Shown here piece after piece: positions 5,113 through 50,965 of a DNA stretch of 64,000 nt. The stretch's first letter is position 1, and each line of letters opens with the position of its first letter. The stretch comes from Emticicia sp. CRIBPO (GTDB taxonomy: Bacteria > Bacteroidota > Bacteroidia > Cytophagales > Spirosomataceae): NCBI RefSeq assembly GCF_009905725.1, contig NZ_JAAAKV010000009.1, positions 186,001 through 250,000 on the forward strand, given 5' to 3'. Under the pieces are notes generated by a model, which was given only the letters and a program-made list of their open reading frames with translations, was not told where the DNA came from and made no database searches. Made by a program: the position numbers and the translations under genes.

Positions 5113-5147
5113 CAATTTTATTTATCTACTCTTTCGCAGAAATCCTC

Positions 5148-5222: not shown

Positions 5223-5324
5223 GGCCGGATTATTTTTTATTCCGCCATCAAATCCCGGAAATTTCGGCTATTTTAATTCTTAATATTTTTTAGTTTTTAG
5301 GCCCCGAATCCATATTTTTCTATT

Positions 5325-5332
5325 TAATTTTG
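5325..5332 (+). promoter_or_regulatory. Candidate -7 element for the fucosidase-nagA operon
   Basis: TAATTTTG matches TAnnTTTG and lies 22 bases before the fucosidase ATG. The -33 region has only a weak TTTAG at about 5296. Confidence 0.45.
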
Positions 5333-5354
5333 GCGAAAACTCAACCTGATTTAT

Positions 5355-6674: not shown

Positions 6675-6675
6675 A

Positions 6676-7779
6676 ATGACAAAGAAAATCAATGCGGCCA
6701 AAGTCTATACCAACGGCCAGGTAAAAAATAACCAGGAAATTACGGTTTCCGAAGGTAAAATCGTCGCCATCAAAGCAGCCGAAAACGATGCGATATTCGA
6801 TTACGCGAACCTTGCCCCGGGTTTGTTCGACACCCACATCAATGGTGGCGAAAGGTTGTATTTCACACAAAACCCCAATGAAGAATGTATCAGGGACATT
6901 GTAGAGTCTTCGCAAAAATGCGGCACCGGTTATGTCTTGCCCGCCCTGATTACCTCTTCGGCAGAAAACATATTCAAAGGTATTGAGGCGATTAAAAGCT
7001 ATATGGCCAGATATCCTGACTCAGGACTGGCCGGAATGCACCTGGAAGGGCCTTTTCTGAACGTCAAAAAAAGAGGTGCCCATCTCGAAAAATACATTCA
7101 GAAGCCTGCCAATGACTTCATCGAAGAAATCATCAGACATGGAAAAGACGTCATCAGGATCATCACCATAGCCCCTGAGAACTTCACAGATGAACAGGTC
7201 AAAATATTACTTGACTCAGGGATCAATGTTTCGGCAGGGCATTCCAATGCGACCTTGAAAGAGGCCCAGCATGGATTTGATCTCGGGATAAAGCTCGTCA
7301 CCCACCTTTACAATGCCATGTCGGCCTTCACGCATCGTGAACCGGGTCTCATCGGAGCCAGTCTTTCTGCTCAGGATGTCTATGCCCCCATCATCCTGGA
7401 TGGTGTTCATTGCGACTTTGAAGCCGCCAGAATTGCTTATAAATGCAAAAAGGACAAGTTGTTCCTCATTTCAGATGCCCTGTTTGTCAACAAAAAAGTA
7501 CAGTCATTCAAATGGGAGGAGTTTGATGCCTACCTGGGTGACAACCAATACAGGAACACCGACGGTAACCTGGCCGGGGCTACCATCTCACTGGCAGACG
7601 GCGTAGTCAATGCAGTCAGGGAATTGGGCGTGAGTATTAGCGAAGCCATAGAAATGGCAACCCTGAGACCTGCACAGGCCTTAAAAATGGACCATCTGAT
7701 GGGCAAGGTAGAAGCGGGCTATCCGGCCCAGTTTACGGTATTCAATGATGATCTTTCTGAATTCAAATACATAAATTGA
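6676..7779 (+). CDS. nagA: N-acetylglucosamine-6-phosphate deacetylase
   Basis: A cytoplasmic amidohydrolase of 367 residues that converts GlcNAc-6-phosphate to glucosamine-6-phosphate plus acetate. Visible landmarks are FDTHINGG near the N-terminus (His-X-Asn rather than HxH), HLEGPF (metal-ligand Glu124), SAGHSNAT (His189), THLYNAMS (His210) and LISDAL (catalytic Asp267). The H-x-N pattern resembles the single-metal enzymes of the E. coli type. The ATG starts one base after the fucosidase TGA, so translation is probably coupled. No nagB or kinase is in the window, so the sugar phosphate must come from elsewhere. Confidence 0.93.
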   Translation: MTKKINAAKVYTNGQVKNNQEITVSEGKIVAIKAAENDAIFDYANLAPGLFDTHINGGERLYFTQNPNEECIRDIVESSQKCGTGYVLPALITSSAENIFKGIEAIKSYMARYPDSGLAGMHLEGPFLNVKKRGAHLEKYIQKPANDFIEEIIRHGKDVIRIITIAPENFTDEQVKILLDSGINVSAGHSNATLKEAQHGFDLGIKLVTHLYNAMSAFTHREPGLIGASLSAQDVYAPIILDGVHCDFEAARIAYKCKKDKLFLISDALFVNKKVQSFKWEEFDAYLGDNQYRNTDGNLAGATISLADGVVNAVRELGVSISEAIEMATLRPAQALKMDHLMGKVEAGYPAQFTVFNDDLSEFKYIN

Positions 7780-22382: not shown

Positions 22383-23141
22383 TCAGTTTCCGGAGGCAGG
22401 GCCGGCTTTGAATTTATACAGATACGGAGCTTTATTGGCCGCCCCGGTATACAGTTTTTCCACCCTTTCGAGAATACCGAGATTAAGCATTTTACGCTGG
22501 AAATTATTACGGCGGAAAGGTGTATTTAAAATGGTCTCATAAAGACTCTGAAGCTCGTTCATGGTGAAGGTTTCGGAAAGGAGATTGAAGCCTACGAGCT
22601 TATGGTCCAGCATCAATTGTAGCGTTTCGAGGGCTTTTTCAGCAATTTCCCGGTGATCAAAACCCATTTCGGGCAGCTGTCTCACATCACACCACTCGTA
22701 CATTTCTGAGAAACGGTCCGTCACCGGTTTGATGACAGAAAAGTCAACAAGTGCGTAATATCCGACGGAGACATATCTTTTCAGTAACCAGCTGAAATCG
22801 GCCACGTCGAGATCGTTATTCTCCAGGAATTTCTTCATGGTATCGATCGTAGCCCTCCCCGCATCTCCAAAAACCCGGAACTGCTCCAGGTAAATATCCG
22901 TGAGGCTTGTCCGCTCTCTCAAAACCCTTTGTGCAGCCTCATCGACGCCCTCCGTCTGTGCCACCAGGCCTCCCGGTAAAGTCCAAAAATCATACTTACG
23001 GGGCTTGAGCAATAATACTTTCAACTGGTGATCATGAAAACCGAATATAACACAATCGACAGACAACTGGGGAATATACATTTCTCCACCCAGCCTGGCA
23101 TCCATTGATGATACATTAAAAAGTTCTCCTGTAATTTCCAT
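22383..23141 (-). CDS. NrtR/AraR-like Nudix-fold transcriptional regulator
   Basis: About 252 residues. The N-terminal domain has the Nudix fold start (SVDCVIFGFHDHQLKVLLL) and a Nudix-box region GGLVAQTEGVDEAAQRVLRE. Compared with GX5EX7REUXEEXGU, the REXXEE core reads RVXXER and the final Gly is Ser, so metal-binding glutamates are missing. The C-terminal part (NTPFRRNNFQRKMLNLGILE) is the winged helix of the NrtR family, in which catalytically dead Nudix domains sense sugars or NAD metabolites. Bacteroidota members include the arabinose regulator AraR. A start at 23174 is also possible. It is divergent from the ThuA/dehydrogenase fusion gene, with a palindrome in between. Confidence 0.85.
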   Translation of the reverse strand: MEITGELFNVSSMDARLGGEMYIPQLSVDCVIFGFHDHQLKVLLLKPRKYDFWTLPGGLVAQTEGVDEAAQRVLRERTSLTDIYLEQFRVFGDAGRATIDTMKKFLENNDLDVADFSWLLKRYVSVGYYALVDFSVIKPVTDRFSEMYEWCDVRQLPEMGFDHREIAEKALETLQLMLDHKLVGFNLLSETFTMNELQSLYETILNTPFRRNNFQRKMLNLGILERVEKLYTGAANKAPYLYKFKAGPASGN

Positions 23142-23204
23142 GTTGAATAAATAGGTTTCGGGCAAAAATAACAAAATAATTTGGACGGCGGAAAAAAAGC
23201 AATT

Positions 23205-23231
23205 ATTATTGTCTCACATTAAGACAATAAT
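23205..23231. promoter_or_regulatory. 27-bp inverted repeat, candidate operator of the Nudix regulator
   Basis: Perfect 10-bp arms (ATTATTGTCT and AGACAATAAT) with a 7-base centre. It lies 64 bases before the regulator ATG and 58 bases before the fusion gene ATG, well placed to control both. Confidence 0.65.
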
Positions 23232-23288
23232 ATTACTGATCTTATTTTTTTTGACATTATTACAATTTTAACCAACGTATTAAAAGGG

Positions 23289-26200
23289 ATGAAGAAAATT
23301 TTCGATTTTACATTTAAAAAACCGGTCAAATCCCTCCTGATGGTTCTGGGATTGATGGTTTCAGGGCTTGCCCCCTCCTATGCCCAGGCACCTCCTGCCA
23401 AAAGGGTCCTGGTGTTCAGCAAAACAGCAGCTTTTCGTCATGCCTCTATTGAAGCCGGCAAGGTGGCTTTCACTAAAATGGGTCAGCAAAAAGGCTTTGC
23501 GGTAGACCTTACAGAAGACGCCGCCAAGTTTAACACCGACAACCTGAAACGCTACCAGGCGGTTATTTTCCTCAATACAACGGGTGATGTTCTGAATGCA
23601 GAGCAGCAGGTTGATTTTGAGCGTTACATTCAGGCCGGTGGTGGCTATGTGGGAATACATGCCGCTACAGACACAGAATATGGCTGGCCATGGTACGGCA
23701 AACTGGCAGGAGCTTATTTCCTGGATCACCCTATGCCGGATAATGTACAAAAAGGCAAGTATATCGTAACCATGAAAAACCACTGGGCTACCAAGGGAAT
23801 GCCTGATGAGTTTGAAAGAAAAGATGAATTTTACAGCTTCAAACAAATCAATCCGGACATCAATGTCCTGTTGAAAATAGACGAGAAATCCTATCGCGGC
23901 GGAAGCAACGGCGACAACCATCCGATGAGCTGGTACCAGGATTTTGACGGAGGAAGATCATTCTATACAGCCATGGGGCACACTGACGAAACTTTCTCTG
24001 AACCTTTATTCCTTGATCACATCTATGCGGGTTTAAACTATGCCATGGGTGGAGATAAGCCCAAAGCACTGGATTACAGCAAAGCGAGACCTGAAGAAAA
24101 CAGGTTTACAAAAGTAGTGCTGGAAGAAAAACTGAACGAACCTATGGAACTTACCCTGCTTCCTGACGGACGCGTCCTGTTCATAGAACGCCACGGAGCG
24201 GTAAGAACCTATAACACAAAAACAAAACAATTAAAAACAATTGCCAATCTGCCTGTCAGTACCAAATACAAAGACAAGGAAGGCAAGGTGTCAGAAGGAG
24301 AAGATGGTCTGATGGGTTTGGGAAAAGACCCGGATTTTGCCAAAAACAACTGGATTTATCTTTATTATTCAAATCCGGGGGAAGAAGCCAAGAATATCCT
24401 GTCCAGGTTTGACCTGAAAGGTGACAACCTGGTGATGGAATCTCAAAAAGTATTGCTTGAAATCCCGGTTCAGAGAGAACAATGCTGCCACACAGGCGGC
24501 TCTATTGCCTGGGATAAGGCTGGTAATCTTTACCTTTCGACGGGTGACAACACCAACCCTCATGGTTCAAACGGGTTCAGTCCGAGTGACGAACGACCTG
24601 GCCGCTCTGCCTGGGATGCTCAGAAATCATCCGCCAACACCAATGACCTCCGCGGAAAAATCATCCGTATCAAACCTCTGGCTGACGGTACCTACAGCAT
24701 TCCTGAAGGCAATTTATTCCCCAAAGGCACGCCTATGACCCGTCCGGAGATTTATACCATGGGGCACCGTAACCCGTTCAGAATCTCAGTAGATAAGAAA
24801 ACCGGTTTTGTATACTGGGGTGAAGTGGGTCCTGACGGAAGCAAACCTGCAGACGACCGTGGCCCGGCGGGTCACGATGAAGTAGGGCAAGCCCGAAAAG
24901 CGGGCAACTTCGGATGGCCTCATTTTGTAGGAGACAACAAAGCCTACAACAAATTTGATTTCACAACCAATAAGTCGGGTGAAAAATGGGATGTTAACGC
25001 ACCGAGCAATACTTCGCCCAACAACACGGGTCTTAAAGTATTACCTCCGGCTCAGAAAGCCTTTATATGGTACCCATATGGAGAGTCTCCTGAGTTTCCG
25101 CTGGTGGGTAGCGGCGGACGTAATGCCATGGCAGGTCCTGTTTTCTACAGCGAAGACTTCAAAACTGCCGCCAGGGCATTTCCTAAATATTACGAAGGCA
25201 AGCTACTGATCTATGAATGGATGCGTGGATGGATCATGGCGGTGACTATGGACAAAGACGGCAACTACACTTCAATGGAGCGTTTTATGCCAAGCTATAA
25301 ATTCAGCAACCCCATGGACATGGAGTTTGCTGACAATGGAGATCTTTATATGCTGGAATACGGCTCCGGCTGGTTTACAGCCAACGATGATGCCCGTTTG
25401 ATCAGAATTGAATTCAATGGTGGCAACAGAAAACCAAACATCCAGTTGACGGCTGACAAGATGGGCGGTGCGATTCCGTTTAAAGTCAACCTGAGCTCAA
25501 AAGGAACTGCAGATCCTGATGGGGATGCTTTGAAATACTCCTGGAAGGTTACTTCTAAAAACGGTTTTGTGAAAGTGCTCAATACCCCTGACGCGTCTCT
25601 GACCCTTACCAAAGCAGGAATATACAAAGCTACTTTGACTGTCAATGACGGAAAAGGTGAAATCAACAGCCAGTCAATCGAAATATCTGCGGGTAATGAA
25701 CCGCCTGTTCTGGCCTTTGACCTTCCTAAAAGCAACAAGACATTCTTCTTCCCGAACAAGTCTTTTGATTATGAAGTAAAAGTCAATGACAAGGAAGACG
25801 GCAGCCTGTCCAACGGCAAGATTTCTGCTGAGCAGGTTTCTGTCAACATAGATTTCCTTCCTGAAGGATTTGATAAAATTGCGATTGCACAAGGCCACAG
25901 ATCGGCGGATGCTTCTGCCGGATTTGCCAAAGGCAAAAAACTGATCGAAGCCAGTGACTGCAGGGCTTGTCACAGCGTAGATAAGAAATCTATCGGGCCA
26001 AGCTATATCCAGGTGGCTCAGAAATACAAAGGCGACGCAGGTGCGTTGGAAAGACTCAGCAAAAAAGTTATTTCCGGCGGTAGCGGCGTCTGGGGTGAAA
26101 CAGCCATGGCGGGGCACCCGCAGCTTACTGCCAGCGAAGCCGGTGACATGATCAAATACGTACTGAGTCTGGCCGACGAAAAAGCTAAAGTGAGCTCATT

Positions 26201-27041
26201 GCCGGTCAAAGGCTCTTTCACTACCAAGGTTCCGGCAACAGATAAAGGACAGGGTGTTTATATCCTGAGGGCTTCTTATGAAGACCAGGGAGCCAACGGC
26301 ATTCCTCCTTTGGTGTCTGAACAAACATTTACCCTGCGTAACTCCAAAATGAGCCCGCATAAATTTGACAAATTCGAATCGGTTTCTAAAATGTCATTTG
26401 GCGGTAACGAACTGGCTATTCCAGGAAAATCAGGCTCATATATGGTTTTAAACCAGGTAGATCTGACAGGCATAAAACAGCTGGTGATGGGTGTTGCCGC
26501 ACCTAAACCACAGTTGAATGCCCAGGGAGGAAACATTGAATTCCGGATAGACTCCCCTACCGGGAAATTGCTCGGCGAGTCAGGATTTATACCGCCTGTG
26601 GAAGAAATGAATTTTGCAGGAAAACCGGCCGTTATCAATATTGCCCCTACTGAAGGTGTTCACGATGTTTACCTGGTATATCAAAATCCAAAATCAGAAG
26701 GCCAGACCCTGATGGTCGTGATGGGAATTGAATTTAAAGCAACAGTGGAAGACGAAGCCAAACCGGAAATTAAGGCTGCTGCCGCACCGGGATATGAGGA
26801 ATACGCCGGTAAATACAAAATGGAAGGCCTTCCTTTCGAATTTATTGACGTGACGACAAAGGATGGCAAACTCTTTATTGATGCAGGAGGACAAGGCGGA
26901 GAGGTCAAACCCACCTCAATTGCCGACCAGTTTGATGCCAGCGGAAAAGCCACGGTCGTTTTTATCAGAGATGAAAAAAGCAAAGTAGCCAAAATCAAGG
27001 TATTGGTGATGGGTTCAGATTATCAGGGAGTAAAACAATAA
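23289..27041 (+). CDS. ThuA - PQQ sugar dehydrogenase - PKD - cytochrome c - carbohydrate-binding fusion (1250 aa)
   Basis: Exported multidomain protein. Order: signal peptide (1-33); ThuA domain (about 38-255, VLVFSKTAAFRHASIEAG start); glucose/sorbosone-dehydrogenase propeller (about 275-715) with CCHTGG at Cys399-Cys400-His401, whose histidine aligns with the catalytic base of PQQ glucose dehydrogenases; PKD domain (about 725-805, DPDGDALKYSW); class I cytochrome c (heme site CRACH, 891-895, probable ligand Met940); a CBM6-like region (about 990-1155) and a final DUF3471-like tail (about 1160-1250, YAGKY...DGKLFID). I infer periplasmic sugar oxidation with electrons passed directly to the fused heme. 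It is divergent from the Nudix regulator. A paralogue is at 47,627. Confidence 0.88.
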   Translation: MKKIFDFTFKKPVKSLLMVLGLMVSGLAPSYAQAPPAKRVLVFSKTAAFRHASIEAGKVAFTKMGQQKGFAVDLTEDAAKFNTDNLKRYQAVIFLNTTGDVLNAEQQVDFERYIQAGGGYVGIHAATDTEYGWPWYGKLAGAYFLDHPMPDNVQKGKYIVTMKNHWATKGMPDEFERKDEFYSFKQINPDINVLLKIDEKSYRGGSNGDNHPMSWYQDFDGGRSFYTAMGHTDETFSEPLFLDHIYAGLNYAMGGDKPKALDYSKARPEENRFTKVVLEEKLNEPMELTLLPDGRVLFIERHGAVRTYNTKTKQLKTIANLPVSTKYKDKEGKVSEGEDGLMGLGKDPDFAKNNWIYLYYSNPGEEAKNILSRFDLKGDNLVMESQKVLLEIPVQREQCCHTGGSIAWDKAGNLYLSTGDNTNPHGSNGFSPSDERPGRSAWDAQKSSANTNDLRGKIIRIKPLADGTYSIPEGNLFPKGTPMTRPEIYTMGHRNPFRISVDKKTGFVYWGEVGPDGSKPADDRGPAGHDEVGQARKAGNFGWPHFVGDNKAYNKFDFTTNKSGEKWDVNAPSNTSPNNTGLKVLPPAQKAFIWYPYGESPEFPLVGSGGRNAMAGPVFYSEDFKTAARAFPKYYEGKLLIYEWMRGWIMAVTMDKDGNYTSMERFMPSYKFSNPMDMEFADNGDLYMLEYGSGWFTANDDARLIRIEFNGGNRKPNIQLTADKMGGAIPFKVNLSSKGTADPDGDALKYSWKVTSKNGFVKVLNTPDASLTLTKAGIYKATLTVNDGKGEINSQSIEISAGNEPPVLAFDLPKSNKTFFFPNKSFDYEVKVNDKEDGSLSNGKISAEQVSVNIDFLPEGFDKIAIAQGHRSADASAGFAKGKKLIEASDCRACHSVDKKSIGPSYIQVAQKYKGDAGALERLSKKVISGGSGVWGETAMAGHPQLTASEAGDMIKYVLSLADEKAKVSSLPVKGSFTTKVPATDKGQGVYILRASYEDQGANGIPPLVSEQTFTLRNSKMSPHKFDKFESVSKMSFGGNELAIPGKSGSYMVLNQVDLTGIKQLVMGVAAPKPQLNAQGGNIEFRIDSPTGKLLGESGFIPPVEEMNFAGKPAVINIAPTEGVHDVYLVYQNPKSEGQTLMVVMGIEFKATVEDEAKPEIKAAAAPGYEEYAGKYKMEGLPFEFIDVTTKDGKLFIDAGGQGGEVKPTSIADQFDASGKATVVFIRDEKSKVAKIKVLVMGSDYQGVKQ

Positions 27042-27051
27042 TAAACCAGGG

Positions 27052-27080
27052 GAGTTTGCGACGGCAAACTCTCTTTTTTT
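27052..27080 (+). terminator. Intrinsic terminator after the first fusion gene
   Basis: An 8-bp stem (GAGTTTGC with GCAAACTC, loop GACG) then a run of T. It ends 12 bases before the next start codon, so the isomerase gene depends on read-through or on this RNA segment being conditional. Confidence 0.75.
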
Positions 27081-27092
27081 CTACTATCAGCA

Positions 27093-28103
27093 ATGAAAAA
27101 CAAAGAAGAAATATTCGCAGAAAACGGGTTAAACCGTCGTGATTTCCTGGGACAAATTGGTATGGCCGCAGCTGCCACGTTGATTTCCCCATCTCTTTTT
27201 GCCCAACCTAAACCATGGTTTGAGATTTCCCTGGCAGAATTCTCACTTGCAGGCTCATTATATGGCGGCAAACTCAAAAATATGGACTTCCCGGCTAAGG
27301 CTAAAAATGACTTTGGTATCAGTGCCGTAGAGTACGTCTCAGGATTCTGGAATGGTAAATCACAGGATCAGGCTTATCTTAACGAGCTTAAACAGAGAAC
27401 GGGAGACCTGGGCGTCAGGAATGTCCTGATCATGGTGGACGGCGAAGGCGACCTGGGAGCCAGTGATGCAGCCAAAAGGCTGAAGGCTGTAGAAAACCAT
27501 TACAAATGGGTGGATGCTGCCAAATTCCTGGGATGCCATGCCATCCGCGTGAACATGGAAGGTGACGGAACTCCCGAAGACATCCTGAAACAAGGGGTGG
27601 AAGGCTATGGTAAGCTGGTTGAATACGGTAAAAAAACAGGTATCTCAGTGATCATCGAAAATCATATTTCGGTGTCTACCAACCCTGACTGGCTGGCCAG
27701 GCTACTGAAAGAGGTCAACAGCCCTTATGCGGGCAGCTTACCTGATTTCGGAAATTTCACAGAAAGGGAAAAACCAAAGACCATGACGCTGGAAGGCTTT
27801 ATGAGTGCGAAAATCCTGAATGATTATGATAAATATGAAGGTACCCGCAAATTGATGCCGTATGCAAAAGGCGTGAGTGCCAAAACCCATACTTTCGACG
27901 AAAAAGGAAATTGTACCGATGTTGATTTCAATAAAATGATGCCTATTGTTAAAAAAGGAATCACGAAAAACTTCAAAGGATTTATCGGCATTGAATATGA
28001 AGGAGGTTTCATGAAAATGATGGGAGCCAAAGGCGACTATCTGTCTGAAGATGACGGCATCAAAGCCACCAAAGCATTGCTTGAAAAAGCTCAGGCTTTG
28101 TAA
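27093..28103 (+). CDS. Tat-exported sugar phosphate isomerase/epimerase-type TIM barrel
   Basis: A 336-residue AP-endonuclease-2/xylose-isomerase-like TIM barrel. The N-terminus carries a twin-arginine signal (LNRRDFLGQIGMAAAATL, Arg15-Arg16) ending near LFAQ, so the folded, probably metal-loaded enzyme is exported to the periplasm. Barrel motifs include GISVIIENHISVSTNP (metal-ligand Glu), LPDFGNF (Asp), and FIGIEYEGG (Glu) at the end. It lies 51 bases downstream of the oxidase fusion. An isomerase acting on a sugar or keto-sugar in the periplasm fits the neighbourhood, but the substrate is unknown. Confidence 0.87.
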   Translation: MKNKEEIFAENGLNRRDFLGQIGMAAAATLISPSLFAQPKPWFEISLAEFSLAGSLYGGKLKNMDFPAKAKNDFGISAVEYVSGFWNGKSQDQAYLNELKQRTGDLGVRNVLIMVDGEGDLGASDAAKRLKAVENHYKWVDAAKFLGCHAIRVNMEGDGTPEDILKQGVEGYGKLVEYGKKTGISVIIENHISVSTNPDWLARLLKEVNSPYAGSLPDFGNFTEREKPKTMTLEGFMSAKILNDYDKYEGTRKLMPYAKGVSAKTHTFDEKGNCTDVDFNKMMPIVKKGITKNFKGFIGIEYEGGFMKMMGAKGDYLSEDDGIKATKALLEKAQAL

Positions 28104-28125
28104 AAATTAAAATCCTGTATAAAAC

Positions 28126-28160
28126 AAAAGACCTGGTCCGTTACGAACCAGGTCTTTTTT
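28126..28160. terminator. Bidirectional terminator between two isomerase genes
   Basis: A 12-bp stem (AAAAGACCTGGT with ACCAGGTCTTTT) and a 9-base loop with T tracts on both strands, located between the stops of two converging genes. Confidence 0.85.
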
Positions 28161-28176
28161 ATTGAACTTAAAAGTC

Positions 28177-29229
28177 TTAAATTCCCAGAACTTTACGATT
28201 GACTGCTTCATCAGCACCTGTAGCCGCGAAATCATCAAAAGCTCTTGTAGCTACTTGAATGATGTGGCTTTCGATAAACGGTGCTCCTTCGGCTGCTCCC
28301 TGCTCAGACGACTTGATGCAACATTCCCACTCTAAAACGGCCCAGCTGTCGTAATCATACTGAGATAGTTTAGAGAAGATGGCACCGAAATCTACCTGGC
28401 CGTCACCCAATGATCTGAAACGTCCGGCACGGTTTGCCCATCCGGCATAACCGCTGTAAACACCTTGTTTTCCTGTCGGGTTAAACTCGGCATCTTTAAC
28501 GTGGAATGCTTTGATCCTGTCATGATAGAGGTCGATAAAGGCAAGATAATCAAGACTCTGCAACACAAAATGTGACGGGTCATAATTGATGTTGGCACGT
28601 GAGTGTCCACCAAGATAATCTACGAACATTTCGAAAGTGGTACCGTCATAAAGGTCTTCTCCCGGGTGCAATTCGTAACAGTAGTCTACGCCATTGTTGT
28701 CGAACTCGTCCAGGATAGGCTTCCATCTCGAGGCCAGTTCTTTGAATGCCGTTTCGATCAAACCTGCAGGTCTTTGTGGCCACGGATATAAAAACGGCCA
28801 GGCCAATGCTCCTGAGAAACCAACATGAGAGCTGAGTCCGAGATTTTTAGAGGCTTTTGCAGCATATAAAAGCTGATTTTTTGCCCATTCTCTTCTTGCT
28901 GGCTCATTTTTATGTACCTCTGCCGGAGCAAAAGCATCATACATGGTATCATAAGCCGGATGTGATGCGATCAACTGCCCCTGAAGGTGAGTTGACAACT
29001 CGGTAATTTCCAGGCCTTTGTCTGCCAGTTTACCTTTCAGTTCATCACAATAAGTTTTAGATTCGGCCGCTTGCTTCAGGTCGATCACCCTGCCGTCCCA
29101 AGTCGGTAACTGGATACCTTTGTAACCCAGATCCGCCATATAGTCGGCAATTGTATCCAAAGAATTAAACGGGGCCTCATCACCCAGAAACTGAGCTAAA
29201 AATATACCTGGTCCTTTTATTGTTTTCAT
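28177..29229 (-). CDS. Sugar phosphate isomerase/epimerase-type TIM barrel
   Basis: A 350-residue TIM-barrel protein without a signal peptide, so cytoplasmic. Metal-site segments follow the family order: ELHPGEDLYDG (Glu), INYDPSHFVLQSLDY (Asp and His), KAFHVKDAEF (His), LGDGQVDF and VLEWECC (Glu). Family members interconvert ketoses or remove a sugar phosphate. Last gene of a minus-strand series led by two Gfo/Idh/MocA oxidoreductases, with which it presumably forms a pathway. The substrate is unknown. Confidence 0.9.
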   Translation of the reverse strand: MKTIKGPGIFLAQFLGDEAPFNSLDTIADYMADLGYKGIQLPTWDGRVIDLKQAAESKTYCDELKGKLADKGLEITELSTHLQGQLIASHPAYDTMYDAFAPAEVHKNEPARREWAKNQLLYAAKASKNLGLSSHVGFSGALAWPFLYPWPQRPAGLIETAFKELASRWKPILDEFDNNGVDYCYELHPGEDLYDGTTFEMFVDYLGGHSRANINYDPSHFVLQSLDYLAFIDLYHDRIKAFHVKDAEFNPTGKQGVYSGYAGWANRAGRFRSLGDGQVDFGAIFSKLSQYDYDSWAVLEWECCIKSSEQGAAEGAPFIESHIIQVATRAFDDFAATGADEAVNRKVLGI

Positions 29230-29343
29230 TTGTTATTATTTAAGATTGAGTGATTTGTGTTGACCCATCATTACAAGTACCATAATGCATTAAACTCCAA
29301 ATTCACACTGAATTTATATTCACACCACTTTAAAACCGAGACG

Positions 29344-29682
29344 TTACAATCTGTAAATTTCAAGTAACCCTACATCAGGATTGTCGTTAAACTCTAAAAT
29401 CGTCTCTTTGTTTCTTATCAAAATATTGGCAAGCTCAGAATTCGGCAAGTTGCCTGTTCTGACCCAAATTACTTTGGGAGGATAGCCCATTAAAAGATAT
29501 AGTTTTTCAAAATCGTCATCCTGTGTAATTACGGTCAGGCCATTTTCTTTACAATATCTCCATATCTGATTATCGCTTGCTTCAAAGAGGTCAACTTCCT
29601 TTACTGTCAAACAAAATTCAAATTCTGTTTTAAGTAGATTCACGACCCTGTGTGAAATATTTTGATCAAAGAGAAGCTTCAT
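29344..29682 (-). CDS. DUF5615 PIN-like protein, probable toxin
   Basis: A 112-residue PIN-like protein starting MKLLFDQNISHRVVNLL, with acidic pairs at Asp6 and in TVITQDDDFEKL, and the usual VIWVRTGN strand. The family is the RNase-like partner of DUF433 antitoxins. Its ATG overlaps the stop of the DUF433 gene by four bases, the standard antitoxin-first arrangement. The module is small and sits between sugar-metabolism genes. It could be an intact toxin-antitoxin pair, though activity for DUF5615/DUF433 pairs is poorly tested. Confidence 0.82.
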   Translation of the reverse strand: MKLLFDQNISHRVVNLLKTEFEFCLTVKEVDLFEASDNQIWRYCKENGLTVITQDDDFEKLYLLMGYPPKVIWVRTGNLPNSELANILIRNKETILEFNDNPDVGLLEIYRL

Positions 29683-29906
29683 GCAGCAACAAACTGAGTC
29701 CTTTGCTCTCTTGCAGCGGCAAACGCCAATACCGCCAGAATGTCGTCTTGTGTTAACTCCGGATAATCCTCTAAAATATCATCAAAAGACATACCGGTAG
29801 CCAACCAGCCAAGAACATCTCCAACGGTTATTCGCATTCCACGGATACAAGGCTTACCACTCCGTTTTCCCGGGTCAATAGTTATTATATTTTTGTAATC
29901 GATCAT
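29679..29906 (-). CDS. DUF433 protein, probable antitoxin
   Basis: A 75-residue protein with the DUF433 signature ITIDPGKRSGKPCIRGMRI and VGDVLGWLATGMSFDDIL, which form a helix-turn-helix-like region, then EDYPELTQDDILAVLAFA. I use the ATG at 29906 (MIDYKN); an upstream ATG at 29930 would add eight residues. The DUF433 family is the DNA-binding antitoxin of the PIN-like DUF5615 proteins. Overlaps the toxin gene start (ATGA). Confidence 0.85.
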   Translation of the reverse strand: MIDYKNIITIDPGKRSGKPCIRGMRITVGDVLGWLATGMSFDDILEDYPELTQDDILAVLAFAAAREQRTQFVAA

Positions 29907-29967
29907 GCCTATCATTTTTATTCTAAACAAATTTAATCATTTTAGCATTCAATCACTAATTACCTAT

Positions 29968-31113
29968 TTACACCGTAACCCAGCCCTGCTTCTTATTACT
30001 TTCGAGAATTCTCTCACAAATCAGCAATTCGCGATATCCGTCAGCAAAGGTCGGAAACTTCGGATTTTCAGGTTGTTTACCGGCCTCTACAGCGGCATAT
30101 ACTTCTTTGAACAATTGTTTTGAAGTATCTCCGAAACCTTCGTTGTGCCCGCCAGGATAAGTGATCAGAGAACGAACCTCTTCATGCACCAGTGAAGGGT
30201 CACGGATCAGCATGGAGTTAGCTCCGTCACGTTGTCCGATCCAGATTTCGTTAGGGGCTTCAGAGTTCCAGGCCAATGTCTTTTTAGAACCTGCAATTTC
30301 TACTTTCAATTGATTTTTTCTACCGGCAGCCACTTGTGACACAGTTACAGAACCACGGTTACCATTGTCAAACCTCAGCAAAACGTTCGCGTGATCTTCC
30401 GTATTGATAGGCACATCCGCGTAGTCTTCCGGCTGAAGCATTTTACCTGAATAAGTTTCAAGCGGCTTCAAAGGTTTCTTACGGATTTTGTGAACTGTAT
30501 TGAAATCGGCCATCACTTCTACAGTCTTAAGGCCCGTTACATATTCAATAAGGTCAAGCAAGTGAGATCCGATGTCTGCAATGGCTCTTGAATCACCCGA
30601 CTTGTCCGGTTCAAGACGCCAGTTGTAATCTGTCTCATAATATAGCCAGTCCTGAAGATAGGAACCGATGATCGAGTAAACATCTCCCAATTCACCTTTT
30701 TCCTGCATGATCTTCATCTGTCTTACCAACGGATAATATCTCAGGTTAAAGTGAACGGCATTTACCAGGCCCGTTTCTTTGGCAAGGGCTACCAATTCTT
30801 CAGCTTCATGAAGGTCCTTAGCCAATGGTTTTTCGCATACCACGTGTTTCCCGGCCAGTAAAACGGCCTTCGATTGTGAATAATGCAGGAAGTTAGGGGT
30901 ACAAATATGCACACAGGCTATATCTTCCATCGCCAGCAGCTGCTCAAAAGTACAAGGTCTTTCGATACCCAACTGAGCCGCTTTGGCAGTAGCCAGTTCG
31001 ATATTTACTTCGCACAAAGCCACTACTTCGATATTAGGAAGTCTCCTGAGTGCTTCGATATGGGCTGGCCCGATAAAACCCGTGCCCACAACTCCAACTT
31101 TAATTTTTGACAT
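29968..31113 (-). CDS. Gfo/Idh/MocA-family oxidoreductase
   Basis: A 381-residue NAD(P)-dependent sugar oxidoreductase. Rossmann fingerprint GVVGTGFIGPAHIEAL near the N-terminus, the conserved CEKPLAKDLHEAEEL (Lys of the EKP catalytic motif), and AIADIGSHLLDLIEYVTGL with the catalytic Asp/His pair. I use the ATG at 31113 (MSKIKVGVVG); an upstream ATG at 31158 would add 15 residues with no family match. Found downstream of a second enzyme of the same family. Probable oxidation or reduction of a keto- or deoxy-sugar in the cytoplasm. Confidence 0.92.
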   Translation of the reverse strand: MSKIKVGVVGTGFIGPAHIEALRRLPNIEVVALCEVNIELATAKAAQLGIERPCTFEQLLAMEDIACVHICTPNFLHYSQSKAVLLAGKHVVCEKPLAKDLHEAEELVALAKETGLVNAVHFNLRYYPLVRQMKIMQEKGELGDVYSIIGSYLQDWLYYETDYNWRLEPDKSGDSRAIADIGSHLLDLIEYVTGLKTVEVMADFNTVHKIRKKPLKPLETYSGKMLQPEDYADVPINTEDHANVLLRFDNGNRGSVTVSQVAAGRKNQLKVEIAGSKKTLAWNSEAPNEIWIGQRDGANSMLIRDPSLVHEEVRSLITYPGGHNEGFGDTSKQLFKEVYAAVEAGKQPENPKFPTFADGYRELLICERILESNKKQGWVTV

Positions 31114-31193
31114 TTTTGATTTAAGAGGTTTGAGGTTATTGAAAAACGCTCTGACCATTCTGACCAGATCTCAACAACAAATTGATACTTATA

Positions 31194-32402
31194 TTAAATT
31201 TCGAATTTTGTCCATTTGGTTTCAGAGTCAGCAGATTTAAGCACAGTCTGGATAAAGCCCATGCCTCTCAACCCGTCATCAACACCTGGGAAATCGTGAA
31301 TTTCAGGATTGTAGCCTGTAGAAATCGTATGTTCATTGCCCAGGTTTCCGGTAGCTGTGGCGTTGCCTTCATCACCCCATTTGGCACGAAGAGCAAAAGC
31401 AAAGTTCCGGTAGATATTGGCAAATGTTTCTACATAACCCTCCGGGTGTCCGGCCGGCTGGCGGGTATGTGCCTGAGCATGTGCAGACAGGTTACCGACT
31501 CCGGTTCTGATAATTCTTGAGCCGTTTTCCTGGTTGGTCAGTTCCAGTGTGTTAGGTTCCATCTGACGCCATTTAAGCCCGCCGGTTTCACCATAAATCC
31601 TGATATTAAGGTCATTTTCCTCACCGTTGCAAATCTGGCTGTCGTGCAATACGCCTTTGGCTCCGTTATCGAACCTCAAAAGGATATTGGCATCATCATC
31701 CAGCTGACGGCCTTCCACAAAAATGGTCAGATCAGCACATAATTCAGTGATTTTCAATCCTGTAATATATTCAGCAAGGTTCTCCGCGTGGGTTCCGATG
31801 TCTCCTACCCCGCCTGCAGCACCACATCTGGCCGGATCGGTTCTCCATGAGGCCTGTTTCTGCCCGGTGGCTTCCACCAGCTGAGACAGCCATCCCTGAG
31901 GATATTCCACGATTACTTTTCTTATTTTTCCGATAGCCCCTGATCTTACCAGGTGCCTGGCTTCTTTCACCATCGGATAAGCGGTATAATTATGAGTCAG
32001 TGCAAACAGCAGTCCTGAAGATTCAATAATAGGCTTAAGGGCCTTGGCTTCTTCCATCGTCAGCGTAATGGGTTTATCCATCACGAGGTGGAATCCGTTT
32101 TCCAGTACAAACTTGGCAGCAGGAAAATGGACGTGGTTCGGCGTAACAATAGAAACGAAATCCATCCTGACTCCTTCAGGAAGTTCCTTTTCTTTCAATA
32201 CCATTTCTTCATATGAGCCATAAACCCTGTCGGCAGGAAGATACAGGGCCTCACCAGTGGCTTTTGATTTTGCAGGATCAGAACTAAATGCTCCACAAAC
32301 CAGCTCGATTTCTCCATCCAGAGCCGCACCGCGACGGTGAACCGCTCCAATAAAAGCCTCGAGGCTTCCACCGATCATCCCCATTCTAATTTTTCTATGC
32401 AT
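31194..32402 (-). CDS. Gfo/Idh/MocA-family oxidoreductase
   Basis: A 402-residue member of the same superfamily, only distantly like its neighbour. Rossmann segment MGMIGGSLEAFIGAVHRR, the motif VMDKPITLTMEEA (Lys of the EKP-like motif, here DKP) and GGVGDIGTHAENLAEYITGL with the catalytic Asp and His. This subfamily, with a longer N-terminal segment and a GHPEGYVETFANIY motif, is common beside sugar isomerases and MFS carriers in Bacteroidota. I use the ATG at 32402. It is probably the first gene of the minus-strand operon and is divergent from the MFS gene. Confidence 0.92.
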   Translation of the reverse strand: MHRKIRMGMIGGSLEAFIGAVHRRGAALDGEIELVCGAFSSDPAKSKATGEALYLPADRVYGSYEEMVLKEKELPEGVRMDFVSIVTPNHVHFPAAKFVLENGFHLVMDKPITLTMEEAKALKPIIESSGLLFALTHNYTAYPMVKEARHLVRSGAIGKIRKVIVEYPQGWLSQLVEATGQKQASWRTDPARCGAAGGVGDIGTHAENLAEYITGLKITELCADLTIFVEGRQLDDDANILLRFDNGAKGVLHDSQICNGEENDLNIRIYGETGGLKWRQMEPNTLELTNQENGSRIIRTGVGNLSAHAQAHTRQPAGHPEGYVETFANIYRNFAFALRAKWGDEGNATATGNLGNEHTISTGYNPEIHDFPGVDDGLRGMGFIQTVLKSADSETKWTKFEI

Positions 32403-32600
32403 AAGTGTAATTTGAAGGTTGAACAATTAACATTCTGGCTGCAATTTAAACAATTTTGCGAATTTCGATAAAACAAATTATCATTTATCAACTTCACAAA
32501 AGTGTAATTACTACAATTAATAAAATTTCTTTTTCACGGATACAAAAAAAATGTATTTTTACGCAGTTTTAAAAATTTCAACCCTAAAAAATTAATACTT

Positions 32601-33815
32601 ATGGTAAACAAAACCAGACTTTTTAACGCCAGTTGCTTCGCCTTGATTACAACTGCATTGTCTTTCAGTATAAGAGCAGGTATTCTCACACAATTAGGCA
32701 CGGAATTCTCCCTCGACGCGGTTCAGTTAGGTTATATTAATTCAATGGCATTTTTTGGCTTCCCTATAGCTATGGTACTGGGCGGTGCATTTTATAATAC
32801 CGTAGGCCCAAAAACAATTATGCAGCTGGCTTTCATCACCCACGTGATCGGTATAGTACTGACCATTTATGCGGGAGGATTCTGGGGCTTGCTGATTTCT
32901 ACTTTCTTTGTTGGTTTTGGTAATGGCTGTACTGAAGCGGCCTGTAACCCTATGATTGCCGACACCTACTCAGGCTCAACACTCGACAAAATGTTCAACA
33001 GGTTCCATATGTGGTTCCCTGGCGGCATTGTTATCGGAAGTCTTATCTCAAAATTCCTTACAGACTCAGGTTTTTCGTGGCAGATACAAATGTGGGTGAT
33101 CATGATTCCTGCAGTCATTTATGCTTATTTGTTCTACGGACAAAAATTCCCGGACGCCAAAGTAGAAGGGTCTCATTCTACCAGCATGAATTTCAGGGCC
33201 ATGGCCAATCCACTGTTCATTTTTATGTTTTTTGCTATGGCCATCACCGCCATTTCCGAATTCGGACCTCAGCAATGGGTTGGACCGATCATGGCTAACA
33301 GCGGTGCAAAACCTATGTTGATCCTTGCTCTTGTAACAGGTCTTATGGCGGTAGGCAGGTTTTTTGCCGGACCGATTGTTCATAAACTTAACCAGGTAGG
33401 TGTATTATTAGGCTCAGCCATATTTGCCGCTATCGGAATCTACCTGATGAGCCAGGCAACAGGCCCGCTGGTATATGTGGCAGCCGTATTCTTCGCCATT
33501 GGTGTTTGCTACTTCTGGCCAACCATGTTAGGCTTTGTGGCTGAAAAAACACCTTTAACAGGTGCTTTAGGTCTGTCACTGGTAGGTGGTATGGGGATGC
33601 TTTCCACCGCTATTTTCCAACCGTTTATCGGTGGATGGATAGAAAACGCAAAAGTAGAGCAAACAGCTTTAGGAAAAACGGGAACAGAAATGGAACTTGC
33701 TGCAGGCCAGTCTGTTTTAGAGATCATGGTGGCTTTCCCGGCTATTCTTATCGTGTTGTTTACGATTTTGTATTTCTGGCAAAAAAATTCCAAAAGTCAG
33801 GTTTCTCATGCATAA
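32601..33815 (+). CDS. MFS transporter, probable sugar carrier
   Basis: A 404-residue inner-membrane protein with 12 predicted helices. Motif A-like residues lie between TM2 and TM3 (GGAFYNTVGPKTIMQL), and the N-terminus begins TRLFNASCFALITTALSFSI. The FFVGFGNGCTEAACNPMIAD segment is typical of MFS sugar carriers of the FucP/NucP group found beside Gfo/Idh/MocA genes. It is divergent from the oxidoreductase operon and shares a 198-base promoter region. The substrate is presumably the compound handled by that operon. A strong terminator follows. Confidence 0.87.
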   Translation: MVNKTRLFNASCFALITTALSFSIRAGILTQLGTEFSLDAVQLGYINSMAFFGFPIAMVLGGAFYNTVGPKTIMQLAFITHVIGIVLTIYAGGFWGLLISTFFVGFGNGCTEAACNPMIADTYSGSTLDKMFNRFHMWFPGGIVIGSLISKFLTDSGFSWQIQMWVIMIPAVIYAYLFYGQKFPDAKVEGSHSTSMNFRAMANPLFIFMFFAMAITAISEFGPQQWVGPIMANSGAKPMLILALVTGLMAVGRFFAGPIVHKLNQVGVLLGSAIFAAIGIYLMSQATGPLVYVAAVFFAIGVCYFWPTMLGFVAEKTPLTGALGLSLVGGMGMLSTAIFQPFIGGWIENAKVEQTALGKTGTEMELAAGQSVLEIMVAFPAILIVLFTILYFWQKNSKSQVSHA

Positions 33816-47626: not shown

Positions 47627-50600
47627 ATGACAAAAAAAACTTATCTTATCCTATTATTTAGCATTCTGACGCTGGCTGGCTTTGCCCAGACCAAAAACGT
47701 CATGGTTTTCTCAAAAACCGCCGGTTTCAGACACTCTTCTATCAAAGAAGGAAGGGAATTTCTGACAGACCTGGGCAAAAAAGAGGGCTTCACCGTTTAT
47801 CTGACCGAAAACAGTGACGACTTCACAGAAGAAAAATTAAAAAAATACAACCTTGTCATTTTCCTGAATACCACAGGAGATGTACTTGAACCGGCCCAAC
47901 AGGCTGACTTTGAAAGGTACATCCAGGCCGGAGGGGGTTACATGGGTATCCATGCAGCTTCCGACACCGAGTACAACTGGCCGTGGTACAATGACCTGAT
48001 GGGAGGTTACTTTGCCAGCCACCCCGGCAGGAACGTCTCCAATGTACAGAACGGAAAAATGATCGTCCTGGACAAAACTCACCCTTCAACCGCCCACATG
48101 CCGGATGAATTCGAGCGTAAAGATGAGTTTTATGATTTCAAATCATTGAAAACCGACCTGCTTAAATTCCTGATCAAAGTGGATGAAAACTCCTATAAAG
48201 AAGGAAAAATGGGTGATTTCCACCCGATGTCATGGTACCATGAATTTGACGGCGGAAAGGCGTTCTATACCAATTACGGCCATACTCCTGAAACCTTCAA
48301 AGAGCCGTTGATGGTTAAACACTTCCTGGAAGGCATCAAATGGGCGATGGCCGCTAAACTGGATTATTCGAAAGCCAAAAGCAAGAGAGCCCCTGAAGAA
48401 AACAGGTTTATCAAAACCAACCTGGTAAAAAACCTGGACGAACCGACCGAAATGGCGGTTATGCCTAATGGCAAAGTCATCCTCGTGGAGAGAAAAGGAG
48501 CAGTAAAAATATGGAACCCGGCTACCGGAAAGACCAAAGTGGCTGCCCAGCTGAATGTGTATCAGAAATTCGAATATGGACTGATGGGGGTAAACATTGA
48601 CCCTCAGTTCGAAAAAAACAACTGGGTATACCTGTTCTATTCTCCTCAAACCGAAGAACACAAAGACCAGTTCCTCTCAAGATTTGTATATGATCAGAAA
48701 CTTGACACCCTTTTGCTTTCTACCGAAAAAGTGATCCTGAGATTCCCGGCCAAAAGAGTGGAATGCTGCCATACCGGTGGCTCTATCGACTGGGACAGCA
48801 AAGGAAATCTTTTCCTTTCGACCGGGGACGACACCAACCCGTTTGCCTCTGACGGCTATTCTCCAACCGACTTCGGTAAAGGCCGCGAAGGCTGGGATGC
48901 CCTTCGTTCATCAGGTAACACCAATGACCTGAGAGGAAAAATATTGAGGATCACGCCTACTCCGGAAGGTGGCTACACCATTCCTGCAGGCAATTTATTT
49001 CCTGTCGGAACACCGAAAACAAAACCTGAAATTTACGTGATGGGTAACAGGAACCCTTACCGTATTGCTGTAGATAAAAAAACAGACTATTTATACTGGG
49101 GTGATATAGGGCCGGATGCCGGAAAACCAAACCCTGAGCGTGGTCCTGAAGGTTATGTGGAATTTAACCAGGCCCGCAAAGCCGGTAATTACGGATGGCC
49201 GTTGTTTGTAGGAAATAACTTCGCCTACAATGCCTATGATTTCGAGAAAAAAGTATCGGGGCCTAAACCTGATCCTTTAAAGCCGATCAACAATTCACCG
49301 AACAATACCGGCTTAACAGAGCTTCCTCCTACCCAGAGACCGATGATCTGGTATAGCTACGGCGAATCAAAAGAATTCCCTCTGCTGGGCAAAGGAGGCT
49401 GCAACCCTATGGGCGGCCCGGTTTACAACAGCGAGGAATACAGCAATTCACCCAATAAATTCCCTAACTATTTTGACGGCAAATTCTTTGCTTACGAATG
49501 GATGAGAGACTGGATTATCCTGGTAAGCATGGATAAGGACGGCAATTATACCGGTATGGAAAAATTCATGCCGTCTACCAAATTCTACCACCCGATGGAC
49601 ATGAGCTTCAGTAAAGACGGGGTTTTGTATGTACTTGAATACGGGATGAACTGGTTTGCCCAGAATGAAGAAGCCATGCTTTCGAAAATAGAGTACAACC
49701 CCGGTAACCGCAAACCGATCGTTAAAGCTACTTCAAATGTGACTGCAGGGGCTGCTCCGTTTACTGTTAAATTCAGCTCTGCCGGAACCATTGATCATGA
49801 TGGAGATGCCATCACTTATAACTGGAACTTCGGCAAGGGAGTACCTGCTTCCAAACTGCCTAACCCAACCGTCACTTTTGCCAAACCCGGTGAATATAAC
49901 GTGGTGCTGACGGTGAAAGACAAATTGGGCAACACTGCCACCGAAAGCCTGAAAATCAAAGTCGGCAATGCCGTTCCGGCGGTTGATATTGCTGTCAAAG
50001 GTAACAAGACTTTCTTCCTTGACGATAAAATTGATTATGAAGTAAAAGTAAATGATAAAGAAGACGGAAGCCTGGTAAAAGGCATCAGTCCTGAGGATGT
50101 CGTCGTGAGCATCAACTACCTTGAAGGTTTTGACAAAACAGTCATTGAACAAGGCCACAAAGAAAATACCGGGTTTGTAGCCGGAAAAAGACAGATTGAG
50201 CTGAGCGACTGTCTGGCTTGTCACTCTGCCGATAAGAAATCCATCGGGCCATCTTTTAAGGATATTGCCGGAAAGTACAGGAAGAATGCTCAGAATATAC
50301 AATTGCTGACCACTAAGATCATCAATGGCGGCGGCGGTGTATGGGGCGAACAAGCCATGGCAGCTCACCCTCAGCACAGCATATCTGACGCCAAAGACAT
50401 GGCCGATTATATCCTGTCAATCAACGACACCAAAAAGGTTTCAAAACCAACCAAAGGTGAATATGCTGCGGTAGATCACAAAGCAAAAAAAGACGGTGCG
50501 TACCTGATTCAGGCTACTTATACGGACAAAGGCGGAAAAGAAATCGGACCGATCACCAATTCCAAAGTAGTAGCTTTGAGAAGTCCTTCGATCAGAGCTT

Positions 50601-50965
50601 CGGCTTATGATGAAGCGGATAAAACAGCCAAGTTTACGGTACCGAACATCGGCGAACTGCTGACAGCCAATGACGGAGGTTTCGCTAAATACAGTGCCAT
50701 TGACCTGACCGGAATCAGCAAGATCAGCATTGGAGCGATGGGCCAGAAAGGCCAGACTGCGGGGGGCACTATTGAGGTAAGATACGGATCGAAAACCGGC
50801 AAGTTGCTAGGAACTCTCAACATAGATGAGGCTTCCATGAAGGCTTCTGAGATCAACATCAAAGAAACCACGCCTCAGCCGCTTGACCTTTACCTGATAT
50901 TCAAAAACCCTGCTGCTGAAGGAAAACCGTTGTATGGTATCAGCAACATAGAATTTAAGAAATAA
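47627..50965 (+). CDS. ThuA - PQQ sugar dehydrogenase - PKD - cytochrome c - carbohydrate-binding fusion (1112 aa), second copy
   Basis: Paralogue of the gene at 23,289, with the same order: signal peptide (MTKKTYLILLFSILTLAGFAQ), ThuA domain (about 24-245), sugar dehydrogenase propeller (about 260-690) with CCHTGG at Cys380-Cys381-His382, PKD domain (about 705-785, DHDGDAITYNWN), heme site CLACH at 862-866, and a CBM6-like C-terminus (about 955-1112). It lacks the DUF3471-like tail of the first copy and is 138 residues shorter. A more likely TATATTTG promoter lies upstream. It is not linked to isomerase or transporter genes, so it may act on a different sugar with shared downstream enzymes. 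The ATG at 47,627 is preceded by an out-of-frame ATG at 47,620. Confidence 0.88.
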   Translation: MTKKTYLILLFSILTLAGFAQTKNVMVFSKTAGFRHSSIKEGREFLTDLGKKEGFTVYLTENSDDFTEEKLKKYNLVIFLNTTGDVLEPAQQADFERYIQAGGGYMGIHAASDTEYNWPWYNDLMGGYFASHPGRNVSNVQNGKMIVLDKTHPSTAHMPDEFERKDEFYDFKSLKTDLLKFLIKVDENSYKEGKMGDFHPMSWYHEFDGGKAFYTNYGHTPETFKEPLMVKHFLEGIKWAMAAKLDYSKAKSKRAPEENRFIKTNLVKNLDEPTEMAVMPNGKVILVERKGAVKIWNPATGKTKVAAQLNVYQKFEYGLMGVNIDPQFEKNNWVYLFYSPQTEEHKDQFLSRFVYDQKLDTLLLSTEKVILRFPAKRVECCHTGGSIDWDSKGNLFLSTGDDTNPFASDGYSPTDFGKGREGWDALRSSGNTNDLRGKILRITPTPEGGYTIPAGNLFPVGTPKTKPEIYVMGNRNPYRIAVDKKTDYLYWGDIGPDAGKPNPERGPEGYVEFNQARKAGNYGWPLFVGNNFAYNAYDFEKKVSGPKPDPLKPINNSPNNTGLTELPPTQRPMIWYSYGESKEFPLLGKGGCNPMGGPVYNSEEYSNSPNKFPNYFDGKFFAYEWMRDWIILVSMDKDGNYTGMEKFMPSTKFYHPMDMSFSKDGVLYVLEYGMNWFAQNEEAMLSKIEYNPGNRKPIVKATSNVTAGAAPFTVKFSSAGTIDHDGDAITYNWNFGKGVPASKLPNPTVTFAKPGEYNVVLTVKDKLGNTATESLKIKVGNAVPAVDIAVKGNKTFFLDDKIDYEVKVNDKEDGSLVKGISPEDVVVSINYLEGFDKTVIEQGHKENTGFVAGKRQIELSDCLACHSADKKSIGPSFKDIAGKYRKNAQNIQLLTTKIINGGGGVWGEQAMAAHPQHSISDAKDMADYILSINDTKKVSKPTKGEYAAVDHKAKKDGAYLIQATYTDKGGKEIGPITNSKVVALRSPSIRASAYDEADKTAKFTVPNIGELLTANDGGFAKYSAIDLTGISKISIGAMGQKGQTAGGTIEVRYGSKTGKLLGTLNIDEASMKASEINIKETTPQPLDLYLIFKNPAAEGKPLYGISNIEFKK

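Follow-up and report, generated by a model that had tools for sequence, protein, structure and literature searches.

We analysed a 64,000-nucleotide stretch of the genome of Emticicia sp. CRIBPO (contig NZ_JAAAKV010000009.1, positions 186,001 to 250,000; hereafter the window, to which all coordinates refer), and in it a gene cluster at 22383-33815 that had been read, in an original prediction made from the sequence alone, as a single system for sugar oxidation. The seven genes and the palindrome on which that prediction was built are all in place, so that its observation is confirmed, its interpretation being partly supported. The genes at this locus are real and go beyond a chance mix, and the cluster is the local meeting of two separate, widely conserved modules. 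Module A (an MFS carrier, two Gfo/Idh/MocA oxidoreductases, GfoB and GfoA, and a TIM-barrel enzyme, TIM2) very probably ends a 3-keto-sugar route, judging by homology. Module B consists of a Nudix regulator, an exported fusion protein that joins a ThuA domain, a quinoprotein-type propeller and a c-type cytochrome, and a second TIM barrel, TIM1, predicted to be exported by the twin-arginine (Tat) route. Genome comparison makes it the better bet, and likely, that the two modules work together. The more specific reading, that module A is fed by a number of interchangeable exported oxidation units, module B among them, we put forward tentatively, as a little short of probable. Domain calls are from Pfam profiles against their curated cut-offs. 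The two modules are composed as follows:

22383-28103: module B
22383..23174, minus strand: Nudix-type (NrtR/AraR-like) transcription regulator (NUDIX, NrtR_WHD and AraR_C above the Pfam cut-off)
23289..27041, plus strand: exported fusion protein, 1250 amino acids (Pfam and structure model; signal peptide predicted by eye)
27093..28103, plus strand: TIM1, Tat-exported AP_endonuc_2 TIM barrel (69.4 bits, cut-off 31.1; export predicted from an RR motif)
28177-33815: module A
28177..29229, minus strand: TIM2, by homology an orthologue of 2-hydroxy-3-keto-glucal hydratase (8RO4, 585 bits, E 6.3e-175, residues 1-350)
29968..31158, minus strand: GfoA, Gfo/Idh/MocA oxidoreductase (Pfam; solved relatives 4h3v and 6a3f)
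31194..32426, minus strand: GfoB, probable 3-ketoglucose reductase by homology to a hydratase-adjacent Gfo enzyme
32601..33815, plus strand: MFS carrier (91.4 bits, cut-off 33.4)

The assignment of module A is carried by TIM2 and GfoB. TIM2 aligns end to end with the solved 2-hydroxy-3-keto-glucal hydratase 8RO4, which we take to be AtHYD itself, so that "cytoplasmic isomerase", as this gene had been called, is the wrong name. Its reading as an inosose dehydratase was rejected (52 bits against a cut-off of 290), because 8RO4 is far closer. In each of the five plasmid loci examined a Gfo enzyme is the immediate neighbour of the hydratase, and GfoB shares 45-50% identity with it. For GfoA the best solved relatives are 4h3v, at 161 bits, and, at 156 bits, 6a3f from the levoglucosan dehydrogenase set. 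In Bacteroidota, Gfo/Idh/MocA and TIM-barrel enzymes acting on 3-keto glycosides are known from the glycoside 3-dehydrogenase system BT2156-2160 of Bacteroides. We rejected the BT_2158 and BT_2159 enzymes and levoglucosan dehydrogenase as identities for GfoA and GfoB, the NCBIfam scores being far under the cut-offs (for the BT_2158/BT_2159 models, GfoA 48.6 of 650 and 36.8 of 750, GfoB 25.4 of 750).

Two described pathways supply the chemistry. In the Agrobacterium GlycDH-AtOGE-AtHYD-Gfo operon, one "sugar phosphate isomerase" is reported to be an eliminase and the other, on preliminary evidence, hydrates 2-hydroxy-3-keto-glucal, after which Gfo reduces 3-ketoglucose (PMC10628242). The levoglucosan pathway LgdA-LgdB1-LgdB2-LgdC uses two Gfo and two TIM enzymes for oxidation, elimination, hydration and reduction (PMC7676230, PMC10066097). 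Our cluster resembles the former in its TIM2 of the 8RO4 kind and in a GfoB that matches the Gfo beside such hydratases, but has no GMC or extra TIM gene like the plasmid examples nearby, the exported fusion and the Tat TIM barrel being there instead. It resembles the latter in having two Gfo enzymes and two TIM barrels, but GfoA reaches 179.3 bits against the LgdA cut-off of 650, one TIM barrel is exported, and the carrier is MFS, not ABC. It is because of the TIM2 and GfoB homology, together with this chemistry, that we place module A at the end of a 3-keto-sugar route. The cytoplasmic half thus appears to be of the 3-keto-sugar type, as had been supposed; hydration and reduction in the cytoplasm look like a known type, and what looks new relative to the known routes is the exported fusion with its Tat TIM barrel.

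Module A is widespread. Among 121 sampled genomes of the family, TIM2 is found in 117 (at E 1e-60) and GfoA in 118 (at E 1e-100). In 40 GfoA-centred loci, taken from 40 of the 118 genomes with a GfoA match, the MFS carrier, GfoB and TIM2 are all present in 29, TIM2 alone in 4 and none of the three in 7. Homologues of the fusion (at E 1e-200, with up to five candidates scored per genome) also occur in 118 of the 121 genomes, often several in each; with TIM2, GfoA and the fusion near-universal in the family, their joint presence says little. Outside the family, hydratase homologues (at E 1e-60) were found on 310 of 72,556 plasmid records. On a Croceicoccus plasmid the hydratase-Gfo pair is followed by genes for subunit 3 of gluconate 2-dehydrogenase, a GMC oxidoreductase and MFS carriers; a ThuA gene stands 4.6 kb upstream of the block. 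The hydratase loci of Phyllobacterium, Azospirillum and Klebsiella have ABC-type carriers, not MFS. A search at E 1e-8 of the window and 60 loci of the family, in the surroundings of module A and of the fusion, detected no genes like the GMC (two genes), subunit-3 or extra TIM genes of the plasmid loci, which we count in favour of a tie between fusion and module A. As a side observation, Phaeobacter, Pantoea, Pseudosulfitobacter and Paracoccus account for 189 of the 310 plasmids.

The link between the modules comes from position. Fusions related to that of the window lie within 20 kb of GfoA in at least 21 of 118 genomes, from 8 genera (our own included), against about 1.1 expected at random if placement is uniform on 6 Mb and genomes are independent, and this excess favours a functional link between fusion and module A. 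In the other 20 linked genomes the fusions, among the matches listed, are 52-55% identical to the window fusion, and the nine compared are nearer to a second fusion of the window, FUS2, which the original prediction had overlooked:

47627..50965, plus strand: FUS2, second ThuA-GSDH-cytochrome-type fusion, 1112 amino acids (ThuA and GSDH above cut-off)

FUS2 stands about 16 kb from GfoA and is 52% identical to the window fusion, and fusions of its type are neighbours of module A in other genera. The order OstA-BamD-FUS2-HhH is common to the window and to genome G034, in which a gene of the FUS2 type, some 17 kb away from GfoA, adds to the linkage from outside the count of at least 21. In four congeners (loci L210-L213) FUS2 was not found within the up to 20 kb available on that side. 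A FUS2-type neighbour is also present in 9 of the 40 GfoA-centred loci, but this set includes loci picked after the linkage had been seen (e.g. L160-L162 and L165), and at least 21 of 118 is the figure to use. A neighbourhood search proposed with the original prediction gives, in the loci examined, no co-conservation of the seven genes, and does give fusions of the ThuA-quinoprotein type near the cytoplasmic half in other genera.

From these comparisons we infer a route, including its substrate, the carbon oxidised, the cofactor, the TIM1 reaction, the cargo of the carrier and the feeding of module A by module B. The fusion, under control of the Nudix regulator, would oxidise a sugar or glycoside at its propeller, outside the inner membrane, with its own haem c taking up the electrons and handing them to the respiratory chain. 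The Tat-exported TIM barrel, a presumed metal enzyme, would act on the oxidation product. The MFS carrier may then import a 3-keto sugar or its elimination product, a 2-hydroxy-3-keto-glycal, which TIM2 would hydrate to the 3-keto sugar; GfoB, perhaps with GfoA, would reduce this to the ordinary sugar using NAD(P)H. One might speculate further on a non-hydrolytic glycoside pathway spanning the envelope, in which the ThuA-propeller-cytochrome c protein takes the place of the customary flavin-type GMC 3-dehydrogenase, its cofactor site lacking the residues that hold the carboxylates of pyrroloquinoline quinone (PQQ) and having Cys399-Cys400 instead, the Tat TIM barrel eliminates outside, and TIM2 and GfoB hydrate and reduce inside; this elaborated form is a long shot. 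If such fusions do feed a hydratase-reductase module, a common group of environmental bacteria would open glycosides oxidatively and already gain electrons for respiration at the opening reaction. The module further offers a setting in which the role of ThuA domains can be tested, and the altered cofactor site raises the question of the propeller's ligand.

The fusion protein had been described as having five domains, of which four are above cut-off and one is not:

23403..24044, plus strand: ThuA domain, residues 39-252 (253.6 bits, cut-off 33.4; structural match 4jqs)
24132..25403, plus strand: GSDH-type propeller, residues 282 to about 705 (Pfam GSDH, PF07995, and structure match)
25428..25682, plus strand: PKD domain, residues 714-798 (PKD_4, 29.8 bits, cut-off 27)
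25926..26171, plus strand: c-type cytochrome domain, residues 880-961 (39.4 bits, cut-off 21.3)
26424..26690, plus strand: CBM6-like region, residues 1046-1134 (26.5 bits, under the cut-off of 28.9)
26784..27002, plus strand: DUF3471-like C-terminal region, residues 1166-1238 (20.8 bits, under the cut-off of 29.3)

The GSDH match (142.6 bits, cut-off 25) covers residues 282-562 and positions 1-237 only of the 332 of the model. A structure model of residues 28-1150 (mean local confidence, pLDDT, 77.5; global score, pTM, 0.60) has as its best structural matches the soluble PQQ glucose/aldose dehydrogenases 7cdy, 1cq1, 2ism and 3a9g, then HHIP and ThuA-like proteins. Conservation was scored on an alignment of 37 rows, namely 33 of 40 named fusion loci, the window fusion and three paralogues from the same genome, of which L209 lacks ThuA; L017, L026, L037, L040, L043, L044 and L047 were left out as near-duplicate, partial or broken. 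By homology the haem c ligands are the CxxCH motif at 891-895 and Met940, invariant in all 37 rows. The DUF3471-like region had escaped the original prediction. At this place 8 of 22 fusion tails match a small secreted protein that is encoded next door in relatives, and it is these eight that drive an hhalign probability of 99 between the tails and the small-protein family; the tail of the window fusion itself is not among the listed hmmsearch matches to that family. A literature search at the level of titles and abstract openings found no published study of a ThuA-PQQ fusion.

Use of PQQ by the fusion is uncertain. His401, Arg494 and Asn495 are kept in 37 of 37 rows and correspond to His144, Arg228 and Asn229 of soluble glucose dehydrogenase (sGDH); we take Arg228 and Asn229 to be catalytic residues, and Arg406 to be one of those that hold the PQQ carboxylates. 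The numbering of His144, and the naming of Lys377 and Arg408 as PQQ-carboxylate residues, follow PMC6881789. All three carboxylate residues are lost from the fusion, which counts against our proposal: Lys377, Arg406 and Arg408 are replaced by Met645 (37 rows of 37), Asn674 (34, with Arg in one row) and Met676 (35). Another GSDH protein of the same genome (L053) keeps Arg406 and Arg408 and has lost Lys377. Of the genes for PQQ synthesis, PqqC gave no match in the 121 family genomes and none above cut-off in 296 genomes of the phylum (23 weak matches), both searches having been run without a positive-control genome, and PqqE gave two weak matches in this genome, none above cut-off. The predicted PQQ propeller is borne out in its catalytic residues, and not in its carboxylate residues.

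These replacements, near-uniform across the alignment, together with HHIP among the structural matches and the results for PqqC and PqqE, are what would favour a propeller without PQQ, serving as a binding or altered-cofactor domain as in HHIP while the chemistry takes place in ThuA or at the haem. We consider this quite unlikely, given the uniform retention of the catalytic triplet. Moreover, the fungal AA12 pyranose dehydrogenase CcPDH binds PQQ through other residues, without Lys377 or Arg408, and bacteria without PQQ synthesis can take PQQ from outside (PMC6881789); the example of CcPDH makes PQQ in the fusion possible. CcPDH, a three-domain protein with a cytochrome b domain (PMC6881789), resembles the fusion in joining a PQQ-type propeller and a haem domain in one chain, and differs in having haem b where the fusion has haem c, in lacking the added ThuA and PKD domains, and in its cofactor residues. 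Directly before the catalytic His401 the fusion has a vicinal pair, Cys399-Cys400, each kept in 36 of 37 rows. A vicinal disulfide lying over PQQ is known in methanol dehydrogenase, a parallel that is only suggestive.

A different reading of the same fold makes the fusion a C1 aldose dehydrogenase producing aldonolactones, which would be handled by an MFS carrier and a short-chain dehydrogenase (SDR), 3-keto sugars not being involved. The closest solved folds are the soluble glucose/aldose dehydrogenases, and the characterised members of this propeller fold are known to oxidise C1. An SDR and an MFS gene, recognised by clustering and with two SDRs and one MFS from the clusters concerned submitted to Pfam, stand between Nudix gene and fusion in 4 of 40 loci (L029, L031, L044 and L045). 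Neither the SDR nor that MFS occurs in the cluster of the window, and the sGDH substrate-contact residues Gln76, Gln168, Tyr343 and Trp346 are not kept in the fusion, though CcPDH is likewise without them (PMC6881789). On balance we hold C1 oxidation to be somewhat improbable, and retain the tentative proposal of an exported oxidation unit for module A.

TIM1 begins 51 bp after the fusion. The prediction of its export is supported, the Tat-type RR motif being at residues 15-16 and also in three Runella homologues, and Glu189, Asp218, His266 and Glu301 are kept in all four sequences. Its best solved relative is 4ovx, an entry without a named function. Among the loci examined, TIM1 stands behind the fusion in Runella and in the window only (3 of 40 named loci, 3 of 20 further ones), and it has no similarity at E 1e-5 to the other TIM genes of L187, L188 and L191, which are presumed there to be eliminases. 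A structure model of TIM1 was poor (mean pLDDT 45.2, from 4 sequences) and was disregarded.

Within module B, the association of regulator and fusion is tight. Of the 40 named loci, 36 have a divergent Nudix gene no more than 7 kb upstream of the fusion, the distance being at most 500 bp in 23; in the four without one (L026, L027, L028 and L037) the fusion match begins less than 2.3 kb from a contig end. It is also present in all 20 further fusion-centred loci, partly from the same genomes. The regulator is like NrtR/AraR proteins in its Nudix and winged-helix domains and in having a palindromic operator at a promoter, and differs in scoring 95 bits against the 400-bit equivalog cut-off for NtrR. 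The operator was found by a palindrome search of the window:

23206..23230, no strand: operator palindrome TTATTGTCT-N7-AGACAATAA

Allowing up to 3 mismatches, the window has two matches, one exact and one with three, against 0.06 expected by chance. Of 44 Nudix-fusion intergenic regions, the window included (61 sequences before redundancy removal on the first 60 bases), 29 contain the form ATTGTCT-N7-AGACAAT with one mismatch or none, and 40 contain it with up to three; shuffled regions gave 0 of 880 with at most one mismatch. By its conservation, the palindrome behaves as an operator of the gap between fusion and Nudix gene. Its exact 8-8 core with a spacer of 5-9 bases is unique to this site genome-wide.

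Several observations weigh against a joint function of the two modules. At this locus they are transcribed convergently. Operator sites with at most two mismatches were not found at module A, neither in the window nor in the 40 loci (three matches elsewhere in these sequences, against eight in shuffled loci), and joint control of both modules by the operator was thus rejected; genome-wide, sites with up to three mismatches show no excess (42, against 52 in a reversed-pattern control, per strand). The seven genes are not one conserved system: module A genes occur in none of the 40 named fusion loci, 10 of which have less than 5 kb on one side, and in none of 20 further, partly overlapping, fusion-centred loci, and the window's type of fusion in none of the 40 GfoA-centred loci. 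In Runella the Nudix-fusion-TIM cassette is distant from the hydratase (at 0.6 and 6.4 Mb on a single 6.8-Mb contig in G063), and seven congeners that keep GfoA and TIM2, five of which have module A complete, show no fusion closer than about 9 kb. Nine of the 21 listed linked genomes come from one genus, g32, and with near relatives in the count the linkage may be one inherited arrangement. Finally, 6 Gluconate_2-dh3 genes elsewhere in the genome are possible rival dehydrogenases.

The convergent transcription and the unshared operator fit an accidental neighbourhood, in which a Runella-type Nudix-fusion-TIM cassette, with a substrate of its own, landed between TIM2 and mgtE. In genera g20 and g22, in a single genome of each, that gap is filled by other genes, apparently for PII, AmtB and a porin-like protein. 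The window fusion is moreover nearer to those of Runella (76-77% identity, L166-L168) than to those of four congeners (66-69%), which fall in a clade that excludes it (support 0.980, or 1.000 with L045). The grouping of the window with Runella is weak in the same tree (0.653) and rests more on identity; the root is meaningless, and one row, own_C4_fusion, with a branch length of 6.7, was disregarded. Related fusions nevertheless lie near module A in other genera, above random placement, and we regard an accident as rather unlikely, keeping cooperation of the modules as the preferred reading.

The same genome repeats the theme of fusion or ThuA with Gfo and TIM enzymes twice, which we count in favour of cooperation. 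At L207:7152-12024, a ThuA-GSDH-cytochrome-CBM6 fusion is followed by an apparently exported Gfo enzyme, whose best NCBIfam match is the glycoside 3-dehydrogenase BT_2158 (145 of 750 bits). At L208:5047-11980 an apparent operon runs from a TIM barrel through a Gfo enzyme and a 1218-amino-acid ThuA/DUF7133/azurin protein to an MFS-like gene (recognised by eye).

Two further sites in the genome match the operator with one mismatch. That in L204 is beside an apparent second Nudix regulator gene, with a PD40 protein and a Gfo enzyme with an RR signal. That in L205 (4260-5226) is between a TIM barrel with an RR signal, a possible distant target of a Nudix regulator, and a 213-amino-acid gene without Pfam match, and we count this operator before a second such TIM barrel in favour of our proposal; no Nudix gene was recognised by eye in the 11 kb around it. 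A site with two mismatches separates a third Nudix gene from a ThuA gene in L206, where the set Nudix, ThuA and small secreted protein (4864-7005), which flanks the fusion in relatives, is free of a fusion.

Module A of the window also contains an accessory insert between TIM2 and GfoA, likewise missed by the original prediction:

29344..29682, minus strand: DUF5615 (PIN-like) gene (Pfam, 112.8 bits, cut-off 23.8)

A DUF5615 gene occupies the same gap in 2 of 40 GfoA-centred loci. The gap frequently has a small extra gene, a family of about 130 amino acids (cluster 10) being at or near it in 10 of 41 loci. Elsewhere in the window, at 57605-58008, a tandem repeat of 21 bp in 19.2 copies lies within an open frame of 187 codons.

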